A stretch of DNA of 64,000 nucleotides, from the NCBI GenBank assembly GCA_001708385.1, contig CP012388.1:3348001-3412000 (forward strand), written 5' to 3'. Within the stretch, counting starts at the first letter, position 1; each line of letters begins with the position of its first letter. This document shows positions 4,097 through 9,333 of this stretch, one piece after another. This DNA is from Flavobacterium psychrophilum. Its GTDB lineage: Bacteria; Bacteroidota; Bacteroidia; Flavobacteriales; Flavobacteriaceae. The position numbers and the translations under genes were made by a program. The notes below the pieces were generated by a model that was not told the DNA's origin, searched no databases, and was given only the letters and a program-made list of their open reading frames with translations.

Positions 4097-5122
4097 TTAT
4101 TCTTTTACTTTTTCTGTATAATGCTTTGCGGCATTTTCTATTCTTCGTTTTATTCGTGCCTGTAGATTTCGAGGTGATAAGACCTTTACACACTCACCAA
4201 AACCGAGTATTTCTTTTTCCAGTTCAAAATTCAATACTACATCAATACGTATAATGATACCATCTTCATTGTCGTTCAAAACCTGCTGCGAATGATGCAG
4301 GGGTTTGGTAATAACATAGGGAGCATTAACCTTATCAAACTGTAGTAATACTTTAATAGCCCTGTCGCGTTGCGATTTGGTAACACCTATCAGGTCATCA
4401 AAATAACGGTCAAAGTCTACGGCTTCATATTCAACGTAAGGCTCTTTGGTTAACGGCTGAAATTCTACCATCCTGTCAAGCGCCAATGTCATAATATATG
4501 GATTCTTTTTACGCATGGTAACCAGAAACCAGCGGTTACGGTGCTCTTTAAGCAGGTATGGGTAGTATATTTCTTTGGCGGGTTTTAATGCTTTAAACGA
4601 CTGGTATTCTATCAGTAAAGGTGTTTTGTTGAGTATCGCCTGGTAGAGTGGATTGATATGCTCGATGCCTTTAAGCTGCTTATTATCATCAAACTGAATG
4701 TAATTCTTGGTCTTTTTAGCCGACTTATTTACATTGTTTTCTAGCTTGGCGATAAGCTCGCTCATTTCGTCAAAATAATTAAAGCCATTTAATTGTTTTA
4801 GTACACTCACTATCTCCTTCATTTTATCCATGTCGGTATCATTAATGGGCGATTTGGTTATACTGTAAGTGGCATCTTCGTATGTGTAAAAACGTTTGTC
4901 GGTAACTACAATAGGTGCGTTATAACCCAGGCTATCACTACGCATCACCTGAATGTCTGCCTGAATGGTACGTTTACTTACACCGCTGGTTATACCTTCA
5001 TATTCGTAGAGCGCATCCGATACCTTTTCTATAATATCATCAAGCGTCCACTTTCTAAAGCGGTTCCTAAGGCATTCGTCTATGGTTTTGTAGCGCAGCA
5101 GCGCAAGCTTATTTGTAGCCAT
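4097..5122 (-). CDS. WYL-domain transcriptional regulator, candidate controller of the Rsr/RtcB locus
   Basis: A 341-residue DNA-binding regulator. An N-terminal winged helix-turn-helix lies at about residues 5-70 (LDDIIEKVSDAL then SKRTIQADIQVMRS). A WYL ligand-sensing domain lies at about 160-230, with IEYQSFKALKPAKEIYYPYL followed by NRWFLVT (the W-F-L of the WYL name). A C-terminal WCX-like extension follows. WYL domains are known to sense nucleic acid or nucleotide ligands in several defence and repair systems. It is transcribed divergently from rsr with 281 bp between the start codons, and that gap holds inverted repeats that could be its operator. Control of rsr-rtcB is inferred from this arrangement. 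In the enterobacterial RNA-repair operon the regulator is instead a sigma-54 activator, RtcR. Confidence 0.85.
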   Translation of the reverse strand: MATNKLALLRYKTIDECLRNRFRKWTLDDIIEKVSDALYEYEGITSGVSKRTIQADIQVMRSDSLGYNAPIVVTDKRFYTYEDATYSITKSPINDTDMDKMKEIVSVLKQLNGFNYFDEMSELIAKLENNVNKSAKKTKNYIQFDDNKQLKGIEHINPLYQAILNKTPLLIEYQSFKALKPAKEIYYPYLLKEHRNRWFLVTMRKKNPYIMTLALDRMVEFQPLTKEPYVEYEAVDFDRYFDDLIGVTKSQRDRAIKVLLQFDKVNAPYVITKPLHHSQQVLNDNEDGIIIRIDVVLNFELEKEILGFGECVKVLSPRNLQARIKRRIENAAKHYTEKVKE

Positions 5123-5403: not shown

Positions 5404-6921
5404 ATGAAATTCAATTTTTTAAACAGGCAAAACAATGTTACAGTAAATCATCAAGGTGCTAAGGCATACAAAATGACTCCGGAACTTGAATTATATTCTG
5501 CCGTGGTTACCACAGGATTGAATGATTCATTTTACGAATCGGGTAACGAAAGACTAGAAAAAATAAAAATGCTTATTGCTAAATGCGATGCAGAATTTGT
5601 GGCAAAGCTTGCCATATATGCAAGAACAGAAATGTATTTGCGATCTATACCAACGGTGCTTTCGGTTGAGTTAGCGAAACAGTCTAAAGGTACCGATACG
5701 GTAAGCAAAACCGTGAGCAATGTAATTCAGCGTGCCGATGAGATAACCGAGTTACTTTCTTATTATCAAATAGCTAATGGCAGGACGGAAGCTAAAAAAT
5801 TAAACAGATTGTCTAAACAAGTACAAAAAGGTTTGGCTGTATCCTTTAACAGGTTTGATGAATACCAGTTTGCTAAATACAACCGTGCTACGGATGTGAA
5901 ATTGAAGGATGCTTTGTTTTTGGTGCATCCAAAAGCAAAAGACGAAACGCAGCAGGAGATCTTTAATAAAATAGCCGCCGATACATTGGCGACACCTTAC
6001 ACGTGGGAAACTGAATTATCTGAATTGGGTAAAACAAAATTTATCAATGCGATAGATAAAAAAAGAGCTGTAGCCGCCAAATGGGGTGAGTTGATTGAGA
6101 GCAGGAAGGTTGGCTACATGGCGTTAATGAGAAACTTAAGAAACATTGTTGAAGCTGAGGTTTCGGCTAAACATATACAAATGGTGTGCGATTACATAGC
6201 GAACGAAAAAGCAGTTATGGGGTCTAAGCAATTGCCTTTCCGTTTTCTTTCGGCGTACAGGGAGATAAAAGCATTAAAATCGGGTTATACATCGGCAATA
6301 TTAAATGCGCTTGAAGATGCTGTAATGCATAGCGCCAAAAATATAAAAGGTTTCGGTTATGATACATCGGTAGTAATTGCAGCAGACGTTTCGGGTTCTA
6401 TGCAGCAGCCGGTATCGGTAAAAAGCAAAGTACAGTTGTATGATATAGGCTTAATGCTTGCTATGCTTATGCAGTCGCAGTGTAAAAATGTAGTTACAGG
6501 CATGTTTGGCGATAAATGGAAAATAGTAAACATGCCCCAACGAAACGTGCTTGCTAATGTATTGGAATTTTACCGTAGGGAGGGTGAAGTAGGTTATGCT
6601 ACAAACGGTTACCTGGTGTTGGAAGACCTTATACAAAGAAAGCATAAAGCTGATAAAGTAATGTTGTTTACAGATGTGCAGATGTACGACACTAGTGGTG
6701 TATTTAACTCGTTTGAAAAATCGTGGATGCGATACAAAGCAATTGCGCCAAACGCCAAATTATATGTGTTTGACCTTGCGGGGCACGGAATGCAGCCTTT
6801 GGATATACGTAGAAATGATGTATATCTTATAGCGGGCTGGAGTGATAAGATATTTGATGTTTTATACGCTGTGGAAGATGCAGGCAATGCATTAACTAAG
6901 ATAAACAGTATTGAATTATAA
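5404..6921 (+). CDS. rsr: Ro60-family TROVE protein (Rsr), Y RNA-binding ring protein
   Basis: A 505-residue orthologue of Ro60/Rsr. Ro proteins form a ring that binds Y RNAs on its outer surface and passes misfolded or damaged RNA 3' ends through its hole. They work in RNA quality control, often with exonucleases. Residues about 15-310 form the TROVE HEAT-repeat ring (YSAVVTTGLNDSFY, FVAKLAIYAR, GYMALMRNLRNIVE). Residues about 320-500 form a von Willebrand A domain with an intact MIDAS site: D328-x-S330-x-S332 in ADVSGSMQQP, T400 in GYATNGY, D424 in LFTDVQMYD. The only other protein gene in the same direction nearby is rtcB. The 987-nt gap between them holds the Y RNA array. Function by homology is secure. 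Confidence 0.95.
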   Translation: MKFNFLNRQNNVTVNHQGAKAYKMTPELELYSAVVTTGLNDSFYESGNERLEKIKMLIAKCDAEFVAKLAIYARTEMYLRSIPTVLSVELAKQSKGTDTVSKTVSNVIQRADEITELLSYYQIANGRTEAKKLNRLSKQVQKGLAVSFNRFDEYQFAKYNRATDVKLKDALFLVHPKAKDETQQEIFNKIAADTLATPYTWETELSELGKTKFINAIDKKRAVAAKWGELIESRKVGYMALMRNLRNIVEAEVSAKHIQMVCDYIANEKAVMGSKQLPFRFLSAYREIKALKSGYTSAILNALEDAVMHSAKNIKGFGYDTSVVIAADVSGSMQQPVSVKSKVQLYDIGLMLAMLMQSQCKNVVTGMFGDKWKIVNMPQRNVLANVLEFYRREGEVGYATNGYLVLEDLIQRKHKADKVMLFTDVQMYDTSGVFNSFEKSWMRYKAIAPNAKLYVFDLAGHGMQPLDIRRNDVYLIAGWSDKIFDVLYAVEDAGNALTKINSIEL

Positions 6922-6940: not shown

Positions 6941-6975
6941 GCCCTTCTTCATAGGGAGGAGGGCTTGAGGTAAGG
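6941..6975 (+). repeat. REP-like palindromic element R1
   Basis: GCCCTTCT (6941-6948) pairs with AGGAGGGC (6957-6964) through one G-U pair. The tail is CTTGAGGTAAGGAT. A second copy of the same design with a near-identical tail is at 7382-7415. It resembles short palindromic repeats scattered in many Bacteroidota genomes (hairpin CCCTCTCC/GGAGAGGG with a purine-rich tail). It sits between rsr and Y RNA unit 1. Confidence 0.6.
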
Positions 6976-6988
6976 ATTTATAAAAACA

Positions 6989-7136
6989 TAACAGGTGCCG
7001 TAGAGAAGGGTTACTTCGCACTTTATTGCCCGGGTCGCGGGTTCGATTCCCGCCATCTCCACAAATCAGTTAAATTGGGGATGTAGCTCAGTTGGTTAGA
7101 GCAGGAACCAGTCCCTTTTTGAATTTTGCCCTGTTA
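6989..7136 (+). ncRNA. Y RNA unit 1, with complete permuted tRNA-like domain
   Basis: A 148-nt unit closed by TAACAGG (6989-6995) pairing with CCTGTTA (7130-7136). Just inside the stem are TGCCG (6996-7000) and, 14 nt after that box begins, GTTACTTCG (7010-7018). TTTTGC (7124-7129) precedes the closing arm. Between them is a tRNA-like module in permuted order. The T-arm has stem GCGGG/CCCGC with loop TTCGATT (7037-7053), followed directly by acceptor 3' strand CATCTCC (7054-7060). A 16-nt loop leads to acceptor 5' strand GGGGATG (7077-7083), T8-A9, and D-arm GCTC/GAGC with loop AGTTGGTTA (7086-7102). Only the anticodon arm is missing and the Y stem takes its place. Bacterial Y RNAs with tRNA-like domains are established; assignment here is by structure and by position next to rsr. 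Confidence 0.88.
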
Positions 7137-7151
7137 CAATATAAAGTGGTG

Positions 7152-7179
7152 CTCCCGCAGCTACAGGACGTTGCGGGAG
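7152..7179 (+). other. Conserved inter-unit hairpin H1
   Basis: CTCCCGCA (7152-7159) pairs perfectly with TGCGGGAG (7172-7179) around a 12-nt loop, then TTTATAT. The leader GTGGTG at 7146-7151 is shared with hairpin H2. It may be a weak terminator, a 3'-end stabilizer or a processing site between units 1 and 2. Confidence 0.7.
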
Positions 7180-7194
7180 TTTATATAAAAATTA

Positions 7195-7314
7195 GTAAGT
7201 GCCGTTTAAGAAAGTTACTTCGTTGTGTCGTGGGTTCGATTCCCATCATTGACTGGGTTTAGGCAATGTAGCTCAGTTGGTAGAGCAAAACATTTTCTTT
7301 AGATGTTGCCTTAC
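7195..7314 (+). ncRNA. Y RNA unit 2, with complete permuted tRNA-like domain
   Basis: A 120-nt unit closed by GTAAG (7195-7199) pairing with CTTAC (7310-7314). The 5' boxes are TGCCGT (7200-7205) and GTTACTTCG (7214-7222), again 14 nt apart start to start; TTGC (7306-7309) precedes the closing arm. The tRNA-like part has T-arm GTGGG/CCCAT with loop TTCGATT (7230-7246, basal G-U pair) and acceptor 3' strand CATTG (7247-7251). A 12-nt loop follows, then acceptor 5' strand CAATG (7264-7268), TA, and D-arm GCTC/GAGC with an 8-nt loop (7271-7286). Acceptor and terminal stems differ in sequence from unit 1 but keep pairing, which is covariation between copies. Confidence 0.87.
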
Positions 7315-7325
7315 AATGTGGTGAT

Positions 7326-7355
7326 TCTCCCGTGGCCGGAGGATGCTGCGGGAGA
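7326..7355 (+). other. Conserved inter-unit hairpin H2
   Basis: TCTCCCG (7326-7332) pairs with CGGGAGA (7349-7355). Its CTCCCG...CGGGAG core aligns with H1 over 28 nt and it has the same GTGGTG leader (7318-7323). The loop sequence differs between copies while both stems are kept. Confidence 0.68.
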
Positions 7356-7381
7356 TTATAAAAATAATATGTTCTTGTTTT

Positions 7382-7415
7382 CCCTCTTCCTAGGAGAGGG
7401 GTTGGAGATAAGGAT
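7382..7415 (+). repeat. REP-like palindromic element R2
   Basis: CCCTCTTCC (7382-7390) pairs with GGAGAGGG (7393-7400), with one bulged T. It is followed by GTTGGAGATAAGGAT, close to the tail of R1. It sits just upstream of Y RNA unit 3, as R1 sits upstream of unit 1. Confidence 0.6.
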
Positions 7416-7427
7416 AAAAAATATACC

Positions 7428-7536
7428 GGTAAGTGTCGTGTATAAGGGTTACTCCATTGGTCATTGCGGGTTCGAATCCCGTCACTTTATCCCGAAGATA
7501 GGAGTGTTCGGATCCCTTTTCGCTTGTTGCCTTACC
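7428..7536 (+). ncRNA. Y RNA unit 3, T-arm and acceptor-like hairpin, no D-arm
   Basis: A 109-nt unit closed by GGTAAG (7428-7433) pairing with CTTACC (7531-7536). The 5' boxes are TGTCGT (7434-7439) and GTTACTCCA (7448-7456), 14 nt apart start to start; TTGC (7527-7530) precedes the closing arm. The T-arm is GCGGG/CCCGT with loop TTCGAAT (7466-7482). It is followed at once by CACTTTATC (7483-7491), which folds back on GATAGGAGTG (7497-7506) with a bulge, an acceptor-stem-like hairpin. No D-arm is recognisable. The next unit begins only 3 nt downstream. Confidence 0.8.
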
Positions 7537-7539
7537 AAA

Positions 7540-7672
7540 TACAGGATGCCGTAGGAGTGGGATACTTCGTCACCATTAGGGGAGGAATAACGTAGTCGTT
7601 TTATATGGCAAGGTTATCCGGTTCGACTCCGGCCAGACACGCCCCGTTCCCAACCCGTTTTTTGCTCCTGTA
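7540..7672 (+). ncRNA. Y RNA unit 4, degenerate tRNA-like domain
   Basis: A 133-nt unit closed by TACAGGA (7540-7546) pairing with TCCTGTA (7666-7672). The 5' boxes are TGCCGT (7547-7552) and GATACTTCG (7561-7569), 14 nt apart start to start; TTTTGC precedes the closing arm. A T-arm-like hairpin has CCGG/CCGG with loop TTCGACT (7618-7632). D-arm and acceptor strands are not recognisable. It is separated from unit 3 by 3 nt and from unit 5 by 5 nt. Confidence 0.77.
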
Positions 7673-7677
7673 AAAAT

Positions 7678-7772
7678 ATTGAGATGCCGTATTACAAAGC
7701 GTTACTTCGTTTGGTTGTTCGTCGGGTTCAATTCCCGAAAGTATAAAAGCGCTTGTTGCCATTGCTCTTAAT
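7678..7772 (+). ncRNA. Y RNA unit 5, T-arm only
   Basis: A 95-nt unit closed by ATTGAGA (7678-7684) pairing with TCTTAAT (7766-7772) through one G-U pair. The 5' boxes are TGCCGT (7685-7690) and GTTACTTCG (7701-7709), 16 nt apart start to start in this copy. TTGC (7762-7765) directly precedes the closing arm. The T-arm is TCGGG/CCCGA with loop TTCAATT (7722-7738). No D-arm is seen. Confidence 0.75.
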
Positions 7773-7775
7773 GCT

Positions 7776-7845
7776 AAAAGAGTGCCGTTGTCTAGTGTTA
7801 CTTCGTCCAAAGAAAAAACTCCACTTAACAGTTATTGCCTCTTTT
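7776..7845 (+). ncRNA. Y RNA unit 6, minimal Y stem without tRNA-like domain
   Basis: A 70-nt unit closed by AAAAGAG (7776-7782) pairing with CTCTTTT (7839-7845). The 5' boxes are TGCCGT (7783-7788) and GTTACTTCG (7797-7805), 14 nt apart start to start; TTGC (7835-7838) precedes the closing arm. It has no T-loop. Two extra T residues follow the stem, so the unit may also act as a terminator. It ends 63 nt before the rtcB start codon. Confidence 0.77.
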
Positions 7846-7908: not shown

Positions 7909-9333
7909 ATGGAAGCATTAATAAACGGAACCGATTTGCTATACGCCGGTTATAAAGAAACTGGAATATTAGGCCTTGCCTTAAAACTGGCTAACTCTAA
8001 ATACCACGATCAGCCGAGGGAAGAAGTGCTGGCACTTTTTAAAAAAGTAAAAGACTACCCTGAGAATTTTTTGGACGATGAAGTATTAGAACCATTGGCA
8101 TCGGCAATGATAGTAGAGGCCAATGCGCCAAAAGATGAAACGATACCATTAAAAGAAACTTCAGATTCTTATACTGTTTACGGTAAAGAACACATAGAAG
8201 AAGGTGCCAGGGCCCAGATGGATGTGGCAATGAAACTTCCTGTAACGGTAGCAGGTGCTTTAATGCCTGATGCCCACCAGGGATACGGCTTGCCGATAGG
8301 TGGGGTACTGGCTACCAGAAATGCTATTATACCTTATGGTGTAGGTGTAGATATTGGGTGCAGGATGGCATTGTCTATATACGATATACCGGAACATCAT
8401 TTTTTACAGAATGAAGCCAAATACAAACGAGAGCTTATTGCGCATACCAAATTTGGCGCAGGCCACGGTTATCATGGACAGTACAAGACAAAACATGATG
8501 TGCTCGACAGGGATGAATTTAATATTGCACCCTTTATTAAAAAACTGCACGATAAAGCCTGGTCGCAATTAGGTACGTCGGGAGGAGGTAATCACTTTGT
8601 AGAATTTGGTATAATTGAATTTGAACAAAGAGATGAGGTGCTGAATATAGATAAAGGCCGTTATGTGGCATTGCTTACGCATTCGGGTTCGAGGGGGTTC
8701 GGGGCGACCATAGCGGGTCATTATACAAAACTGGCTAAAAGTATTACCAAACTTCCTAAAGAGGCTGCGAACCTGGCTTATTTAGATATGAATTCGCAGG
8801 AAGGGCAGGAGTACTGGATAGCTATGAACCTTGCAGGTGATTATGCTTCGGCCTGTCATCAGGTAATTCATGATAAAATGAAATCGGCTCTTGGTGCACA
8901 GATATTAGCTAAAGTAGAGAATCACCATAACTTTGCCTGGAAAGAAATACTTAACGGCGAGGAAGTGATAGTGCATAGAAAAGGTGCTACTCCAGCAGGT
9001 AAAGGTGTTATGGGAATTATTCCGGGAAGTATGACAGCACCGGGTTTTTTAGTGAGGGGTAAAGGAGAAGCAGATGCTATTAACTCTGCCTCGCATGGTG
9101 CCGGAAGGCAGATGAGCCGTACCCAGGCTATAAAAAGCATAACCAAAGCGGATATGCGCGAGATACTGAAAGATCATGGTGTAACTCTTATCGGTGCCGG
9201 TAGGGACGAAGCCCCGATGGCCTATAAAAATATTGATGCTGTAATGGCATCGCAAATCGAACTGGTAGATGTTGTGGCTAAATTTACACCTAAGTTGGTG
9301 CGTATGGCAGACGACGGAAGCAGGGAAGATTAA
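7909..9333 (+). CDS. rtcB: RtcB-type RNA-splicing ligase
   Basis: A 474-residue tRNA/RNA ligase that joins 2',3'-cyclic phosphate (3'-phosphate) ends to 5'-OH ends using GTP and Mn2+. All signature motifs are present: D121-A-H123-Q-G-Y-G-x-P-I-G, the metal-binding GVDIGC (Cys151), GGGNH (His229), LTHSGSRG (His258), ENHHNF, and the guanylylated histidine in VHRKGATPAG (about His356), followed by ASHGAGRQMSR. The length matches the long RtcB class. With Rsr and the Y RNA array it forms an RNA-repair locus; no rtcA cyclase or archease gene is seen nearby. A terminator follows after 15 nt. Confidence 0.96.
   Translation: MEALINGTDLLYAGYKETGILGLALKLANSKYHDQPREEVLALFKKVKDYPENFLDDEVLEPLASAMIVEANAPKDETIPLKETSDSYTVYGKEHIEEGARAQMDVAMKLPVTVAGALMPDAHQGYGLPIGGVLATRNAIIPYGVGVDIGCRMALSIYDIPEHHFLQNEAKYKRELIAHTKFGAGHGYHGQYKTKHDVLDRDEFNIAPFIKKLHDKAWSQLGTSGGGNHFVEFGIIEFEQRDEVLNIDKGRYVALLTHSGSRGFGATIAGHYTKLAKSITKLPKEAANLAYLDMNSQEGQEYWIAMNLAGDYASACHQVIHDKMKSALGAQILAKVENHHNFAWKEILNGEEVIVHRKGATPAGKGVMGIIPGSMTAPGFLVRGKGEADAINSASHGAGRQMSRTQAIKSITKADMREILKDHGVTLIGAGRDEAPMAYKNIDAVMASQIELVDVVAKFTPKLVRMADDGSRED

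Follow-up and report, generated by a model that had tools for sequence, protein, structure and literature searches.

The 987-nt gap between rsr and rtcB in the genome of Flavobacterium psychrophilum (assembly GCA_001708385.1) holds an array of six tandem units that are almost certainly Y RNAs. The best overall explanation, and in our judgement the probable one, is a tandem Y RNA array for the neighbouring Rsr, in which one docking stem carries differing heads; the array is of a known kind (Y RNAs), with diversified heads. The Y RNA reading had been put forward in a first-pass annotation of the sequence, and is borne out by the position of the units, covariation in two helices, sub-threshold YrlA matches, a permuted tRNA core in two units, and co-occurrence with rsr. 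All coordinates refer to the window, i.e. the whole stretch of 64,000 nucleotides that was analysed (positions 3,348,001 to 3,412,000 of contig CP012388.1).

The genome comprises a single contig of 4.14 Mb. The rsr gene (5404..6921, + strand) encodes a Ro60 orthologue with a TROVE domain (Pfam TROVE, E=5.9e-27); its product scores 25.6 bits against the Pfam Ro60 vWA model, slightly short of the cut-off of 27.7. The gene for the RNA ligase RtcB (7909..9333, + strand; Pfam RtcB, E=3.1e-82) follows the array, and a WYL-domain regulator (4097..5122, - strand; Pfam WYL, E=1.3e-8, and WCX, E=1.4e-10) is encoded divergently from rsr. Homologues of this regulator were found in 27 of the 80 longer rsr loci, 26 of these upstream of rsr on the opposite strand, and 12 loci of the same set have one at most 600 nt from rsr. 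Five other neighbours in the window are predicted to encode a glycosyltransferase, a 2-oxoacid dehydrogenase subunit, a peptidase, an exonuclease-like protein and an FAA hydrolase. The closest named relatives of rsr, among the best 80 of 433 relatives, belong to Flavobacterium. A gene for PNPase is present in the same genome (892 bits); a gene of the RtcA family (PF01137) was looked for across the genome and not found. A G-rich repeat element was observed at 7393-7413, the pattern of which matches once more elsewhere in the genome, and a stretch near 6955-6975 resembles it by eye.

The units were searched for with a scanner built from the grammar that the first-pass annotation had proposed (core TGYCGT, box GTTACTTCG, T[TA][GA]C, and complementary arms). 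All six units between rsr and rtcB were recovered with the borders that had been claimed for them, essentially also for unit 5, for which the scanner gives 7677-7773, with one extra G-T pair, instead of 7678-7772. The spacer from core to box is 8 nt, or 10 nt in unit 5; the box reads GTTACTTCG in units 1, 2, 5 and 6, GTTACTCCA in unit 3 and GATACTTCG in unit 4. At a loose threshold, two weak matches on the + strand and five matches on the - strand were found in the 64 kb in addition; at a stricter threshold of 12 of the 15 core and box letters, which was used for the later counts, the + strand of the window contains the six units alone and the - strand one match. When the 987-nt gap was dinucleotide-shuffled 1000 times, 987 of the shuffles contained no unit, 13 contained one, and none contained two. 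The strict pattern has four occurrences in the whole 4.14-Mb genome, all of them inside the array.

Since the scanner already demands paired arms, the arms were tested separately, with the arm criterion removed. At least five arm pairs were found at 284 of 332 core-plus-box sites, compared with 165 of 1660 shuffled arms. The other strand of the same rsr regions contained no core-plus-box sites. For 40 short units (alignment A1, chosen by the analyst from 55 non-redundant ones), RNAalifold predicted helix 1 (six pairs), a bulged U, two core pairs and helix 2 (six pairs), with compensatory changes in 13 of the 14 stem pairs; 95.8% of the pair cells are paired in these units, a share that falls to 69.4% on shuffling and to 56.9% or less on sliding. 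Helix 2 is formed by the stretch between core and box and a stretch shortly upstream of TTGC; it was no selection criterion for the units, and is 91.3% paired with covariation in all six pairs. The second core pair alternates between C-G (24 units), U-A (13) and U-G (2). The predicted docking stem is laid out as helix 1, bulged U, G-C pair, Y-R pair, a C-G-U/U-U internal loop, and helix 2.

A covariance model built from short units, among them unit 6 of the window (model R1), recovers units 1, 2, 3 and 5, all of which lie outside its training set, at E-values of 5.5e-10 to 1.9e-4; unit 4 was not recovered in the R1 search of the window. Genome-wide the model is weak, with five matches at E<=1, four of them in the array and one elsewhere at E=0.6. 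The folding energy of single units is close to that of shuffles (z of -0.15 to -2.10) and was discarded as evidence for the units. Helix 1 is present in all six minimum-energy folds, and the whole proposed head is obtained in that of unit 1 only.

The heads carried by this stem differ between the units. The claim of a single shared grammar is correct for the stem, but overlooks that the heads are of different types (permuted tRNA core, branched, T-arm, bare loop); the second helix, the T-arms and D-arms, and two inter-unit hairpins confined to the array had likewise been missed. Unit 1 (6989..7136, + strand; scanner, Rfam YrlA, R1 and fold) consists of the docking stem and a circularly permuted tRNA core, with a T-arm at 7037..7053, an acceptor hairpin directly after it at 7054-7083, and a D-arm, 3' of the T-arm, at 7086..7102, each of which is seen both in the minimum-energy fold and in the Rfam YrlA alignment. 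Unit 2 (7195..7314, + strand; scanner, Rfam YrlA and R1) is likewise a docking stem with a permuted tRNA core; of its T-arm (7230-7246) and D-arm (7271-7286), the T-arm alone is seen in the minimum-energy fold, in which the acceptor and D-arm region is paired otherwise. In both units the order of the head is T-arm, loop-closed acceptor helix, D-arm, which is the order obtained by opening a tRNA at its anticodon and closing its acceptor end. The Rfam model for YrlA (RF02553) aligns to units 1 and 2 with 38.9 and 36.8 bits and misses its gathering score of 69, so that these two are named YrlA-like by architecture and not members of the family.

Units 3 (7428..7536, + strand; scanner, R1 and head clustering) and 5 (7678..7772, + strand; scanner, R1 and fold) each carry a T-arm hairpin (7466-7482 and 7722-7738, respectively), and unit 4 (7540..7672, + strand; scanner) has a branched head (7579-7645) with a T-arm (7618-7632) that was identified from the alignment; the T-arm is absent from the minimum-energy folds of units 3 and 4, and no D-arm was recognised in units 3, 4 and 5. 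Unit 6 (7776..7845, + strand; scanner and R1) is a minimal docking stem plus loop, in which neither a T-arm nor a D-arm was found. Units 3 to 6 show no permuted T/acceptor/D domain and are not filed as YrlA. Between units 1 and 2 (7152..7179, + strand) and between units 2 and 3 (7327..7354, + strand) lie two similar GC hairpins, whose pattern occurs twice in the genome, both times in the array; they are possible processing sites. Permuted tmRNA was considered for unit 1 and rejected, since unit 1 alone matches the model (Rfam RF04321), below threshold (36.5 bits, gathering score 47), and with the T-arm and acceptor part only (model positions 36-95, i.e. 60 of 213).

The head structures are supported by alignments across loci. 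For the permuted tRNA core (alignment A3; 30 of 43 units, chosen by the analyst), compensatory changes were found in 24 of 32 pairs, and the invariant or near-invariant columns include what we take to be elbow and core residues of tRNA, namely U8, A14, a D-loop G, A21, U54, U55, C56 and A58. For the class of unit 4 (alignment A2; 24 of 25 units, chosen by the analyst), 20 of 32 pairs covary; its head comprises a covarying hairpin and the T-arm, flanked by GGGG and CCCC, which RNAalifold leaves unpaired and which in our reading pair with each other.

Clustering of 558 heads from 105 loci resulted in 109 groups, of which 24 have at least three heads and 73 are single. The largest group (190 heads in 94 loci) includes units 1 and 2; unit 4 falls into a family of 67 heads in 67 loci, one per locus, and unit 3 into a group of three heads, and units 5 and 6 are single by this measure. 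A T-arm was recognised in 346 of the 558 heads, compared with five when shuffled; of the heads in which both arms could be recognised, 134 have the D-arm 3' of the T-arm and none has it 5'. Short heads of the unit 6 type, in which the class patterns detect neither T-arm nor D-arm, account for 151 of 507. Unit order is alike within groups of related loci and not across the phylum. The eight heads of one family (F10) have a D-arm that by eye resembles that of a class II tRNA, and in three of the four heads with a blastn match to the genome's own tRNAs the 3' half matches tRNA-Leu best; the class II tRNA-like assignment of this head is a lead only. By eye, heads in loci L199, L202, L203, L036 and L037 share the string CTGTCACGC or CCGCTAGAG-like blocks.

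In relatives, one head type resembles rRNA. Nine of 509 units compared (222-230 nt) match the genome's own 23S rRNA at one place (L126:4200-4232) over 25-33 nt with 85-100% identity (best E=1.3e-9, weakest 1.8e-4), and the same block is found behind Y core and box in three further loci. In one of them, the Rfam LSU model gives a weak match (15.2 bits, E=0.13) that covers its positions 1932-1988 of 2925, which correspond to the region of helices 69-71 in 23S rRNA. The loci with this head are from Chryseobacterium, plus one bin labelled Limnohabitans (L037) that is probably mis-binned. Outside this block, the nine units (L058:9604-9833 and eight similar ones) are also highly conserved in the head. 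A single unit gave one 16S-like blastn match (L049, E=2.6e-4). In Chryseobacterium, the Flavo-1 RNA of Rfam was also observed on the minus strand, antisense, right after rsr (L053:7578-7660, L047:7598-7673 and L064:7564-7677, the last of which falls short of the cut-off).

Stem pairing and boxes recur in related genomes, in keeping with the original annotation. The scanner was run over 91 rsr loci (1.10 Mb). On the rsr strand it found 509 matches, of which 507 lie downstream of rsr; the other strand has three. A locus has a median of five units (range 0-11), at least two in 90 of 91 loci; the sole locus with none is on a contig that stops about 200 nt past rsr. Six or more units are found in 39 of the 91 loci, and the suggestion that six copies are unusually many was consequently dropped, six being ordinary in this lineage; in four pairs of loci the two unit sets are the same, which leaves 87 distinct loci with the median and the 39 loci unchanged. 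RtcB was detected in 28 of the 91 loci, some of the stretches being short, from which we conclude that the array follows rsr and not rtcB. In locus L023, two genes that by eye are nucleotidyltransferase-like lie about 900-2650 nt past rsr, between array and rtcB.

In 150 genomes of the genus, rsr is present in 11, and the unit-4 model matches exactly those 11; in 296 genomes of the phylum, rsr is present in 25. Of the latter, 20 regions were used, with scanner matches downstream of rsr in 17, and 15 entered the head clustering. Model R1 matches in 10 of the 296 genomes, all of them rsr-bearing, and all 18 matches adjoin rsr on the same strand; 15 of the 25 rsr genomes are without an R1 match. 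The tRNA-core model (R3) matches 145 of the 296 genomes at E<=1e-3. Four full-length R3 matches away from rsr that were checked, three of them in genomes without rsr and one in a genome that has it, are tandem tRNA-Lys genes, and therefore only scores of at least 55 bits were counted; the highest score among genomes lacking rsr is 53.4 bits, from tandem tRNA-Lys. At this threshold, R3 matches 20 of the 25 genomes with rsr and none of the 271 without; among the five rsr genomes below it, one scores 53.9 and another 47.3 bits near rsr. The positives of the unit-4, R1 and R3 searches overlap partly with training sequences of the models, and the negatives do not. In genomes G243 and G425 the near-rsr matches sit upstream of rsr, and in G243 (L220) three tRNAs are called by ARAGORN between rsr and the Y-type matches. 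In 20 IMG/VR contigs with rsr (L221-L240), the scanner found 14 matches in seven contigs, two of which carry the same units, and R3 gave 32 matches in 13 contigs at E<=1e-3, nine of them, in seven contigs, at 55 bits or more.

As to function, the gap would encode six tandem Y RNAs that serve the adjacent Rsr. On the proposed structures, a common docking stem would carry two permuted tRNA cores, in which it occupies the place of the anticodon arm, as well as one branched T-arm, two T-arm hairpins and one bare loop. The units may be co-transcribed with rsr and then cut apart; for units 3 to 6, which are separated by 3-5 nt, co-transcription is suggested because this spacing leaves no room for separate promoters. 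The stem of each unit would dock on the Rsr ring, and the head would set the RNA-handling partner, or the substrate class, that the Rsr particle meets; candidate partners, taken from other species, are PNPase, as in Deinococcus, and proteins that grip the tRNA elbow. RtcB next to the Rsr particle could then reseal broken RNA. By analogy, the heads may act as adaptors or mimics; to the adaptor role we would give about an even chance. More tentatively, and somewhat short of even, the shared docking stem in the rsr loci of Bacteroidota may carry a whole library of RNA mimics, by which Rsr, at the side of the ligase RtcB, could be addressed to, or shielded from, the enzymes of each RNA class; this library would include elbow-bearing tRNA cores that differ in their D-arms, perhaps a class II tRNA, the minimal branched T-arm head, and helix 69-71 of 23S rRNA.

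Alternatively, the heads may be decoys that imitate the targets of a nuclease or toxin, with the array absorbing the attacker while RtcB repairs the real targets. This we regard as unlikely. The adjoining rtcB, the tRNA-like heads and, in relatives, the 23S helix 69-71 head would fit, and a role of YrlA as possible competitive inhibitor of an anticodon nuclease is raised in the excerpted text of PMC7790460; the same excerpt, however, reports that no YrlA fragments were found, so that YrlA is no substrate of that nuclease. Further, the permuted tRNA cores have the docking stem where the anticodon arm would be, and the short heads without T-arm or D-arm are common.

Slightly less likely still is that the array remains one RNA, without processing, on which several Rsr rings are lined up like beads. 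The close spacing of units 3 to 6 is compatible with it, as is that in the 91 loci, where 225 of 417 pairs of neighbouring units are at most 10 nt apart, and promoter- and terminator-like sites in the array are no more frequent than in shuffles. Against this, known bacterial Y RNAs are described as separate small RNAs of about 90-150 nt (excerpt of PMC8394870), and the number and order of units vary among loci, which fits independent units. A cis-acting leader that controls translation or termination of rtcB, for which the array is suitably placed upstream and in the same direction, is very unlikely, as the units track rsr and not rtcB. Finally, a graveyard of degenerate tRNA genes, to which the resemblance of T-arms and D-arms to the genome's own tRNAs might point, was rejected with hardly any reservation, on account of the permuted order in 134 of 134 heads, a stem that is not tRNA yet covaries, units without tRNA parts such as unit 6, and a unit-4 head family found exactly once per locus.

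We return to the tandem Y RNA array with differing heads, and to what it offers. The bacterial Y RNAs described in the excerpts cited here number one or two in an operon, and one of them has a tRNA-like head. Arrays in which as many as 11 detected units per protein share a stem and carry many recurring heads constitute a natural set of chimeras for studying the function of the Y RNA head, and their heads connect Ro60 to both tRNA and rRNA (the latter through the rRNA copy in relatives). Among the titles and abstract openings surveyed, none mentions Y RNAs in Bacteroidota or with rRNA-like parts; the primary YrlA papers may already describe some of these features.

The window shares with bacterial Y RNAs the adjoining Ro60/TROVE gene and a covarying terminal stem formed by the ends of the RNA. 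At the Ro60 site of vertebrate Y RNAs, the lower stem comprises a helix, one bulged base and a small internal bulge (excerpt of PMC4726728). The site of the vertebrate type has a helix of seven pairs, one bulged C and a bulge of three nucleotides opposite, whereas the units of the window have helices of 5-8 pairs, one bulged U and an internal loop, i.e. a similar layout in other letters. In Deinococcus radiodurans, a Y RNA tethers Rsr to PNPase (RYPER), and Y RNAs are described as modular, with the lower stem binding Rsr and the other end recruiting a partner (excerpt of PMC4726728). We liken that Rsr-binding lower stem to the docking stem, and a gene for PNPase, as a candidate partner, is also present in this genome; in contrast to the Deinococcus Y RNA, the window has a tandem array with several head types.

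The order rsr, Y RNAs, rtcB is the same in the rsr-yrlBA-rtcBA operon of Salmonella, which responds to tRNA damage (excerpt of PMC7790460). This operon has two Y RNAs and an RtcA gene, compared with six units and no RtcA gene found here, and its regulator is RtcR, the place of which may be taken by the divergent WYL-type regulator of the window. In Salmonella, the Y RNA mimics a tRNA in circularly permuted form (PDB 6CU1; excerpt of PMC11472068), and dihydrouridine and pseudouridine have been reported in the D and T loops of YrlA (excerpt of PMC8394870). Like the array, YrlA (Rfam RF02553) is encoded beside rsr and near rtcB and combines a terminal stem with a permuted tRNA domain of T, acceptor and D arms, which in the window is found in units 1 and 2 only; the array differs from it in that units 1 and 2 score below the Rfam cut-off and that there are six units with several types of head.
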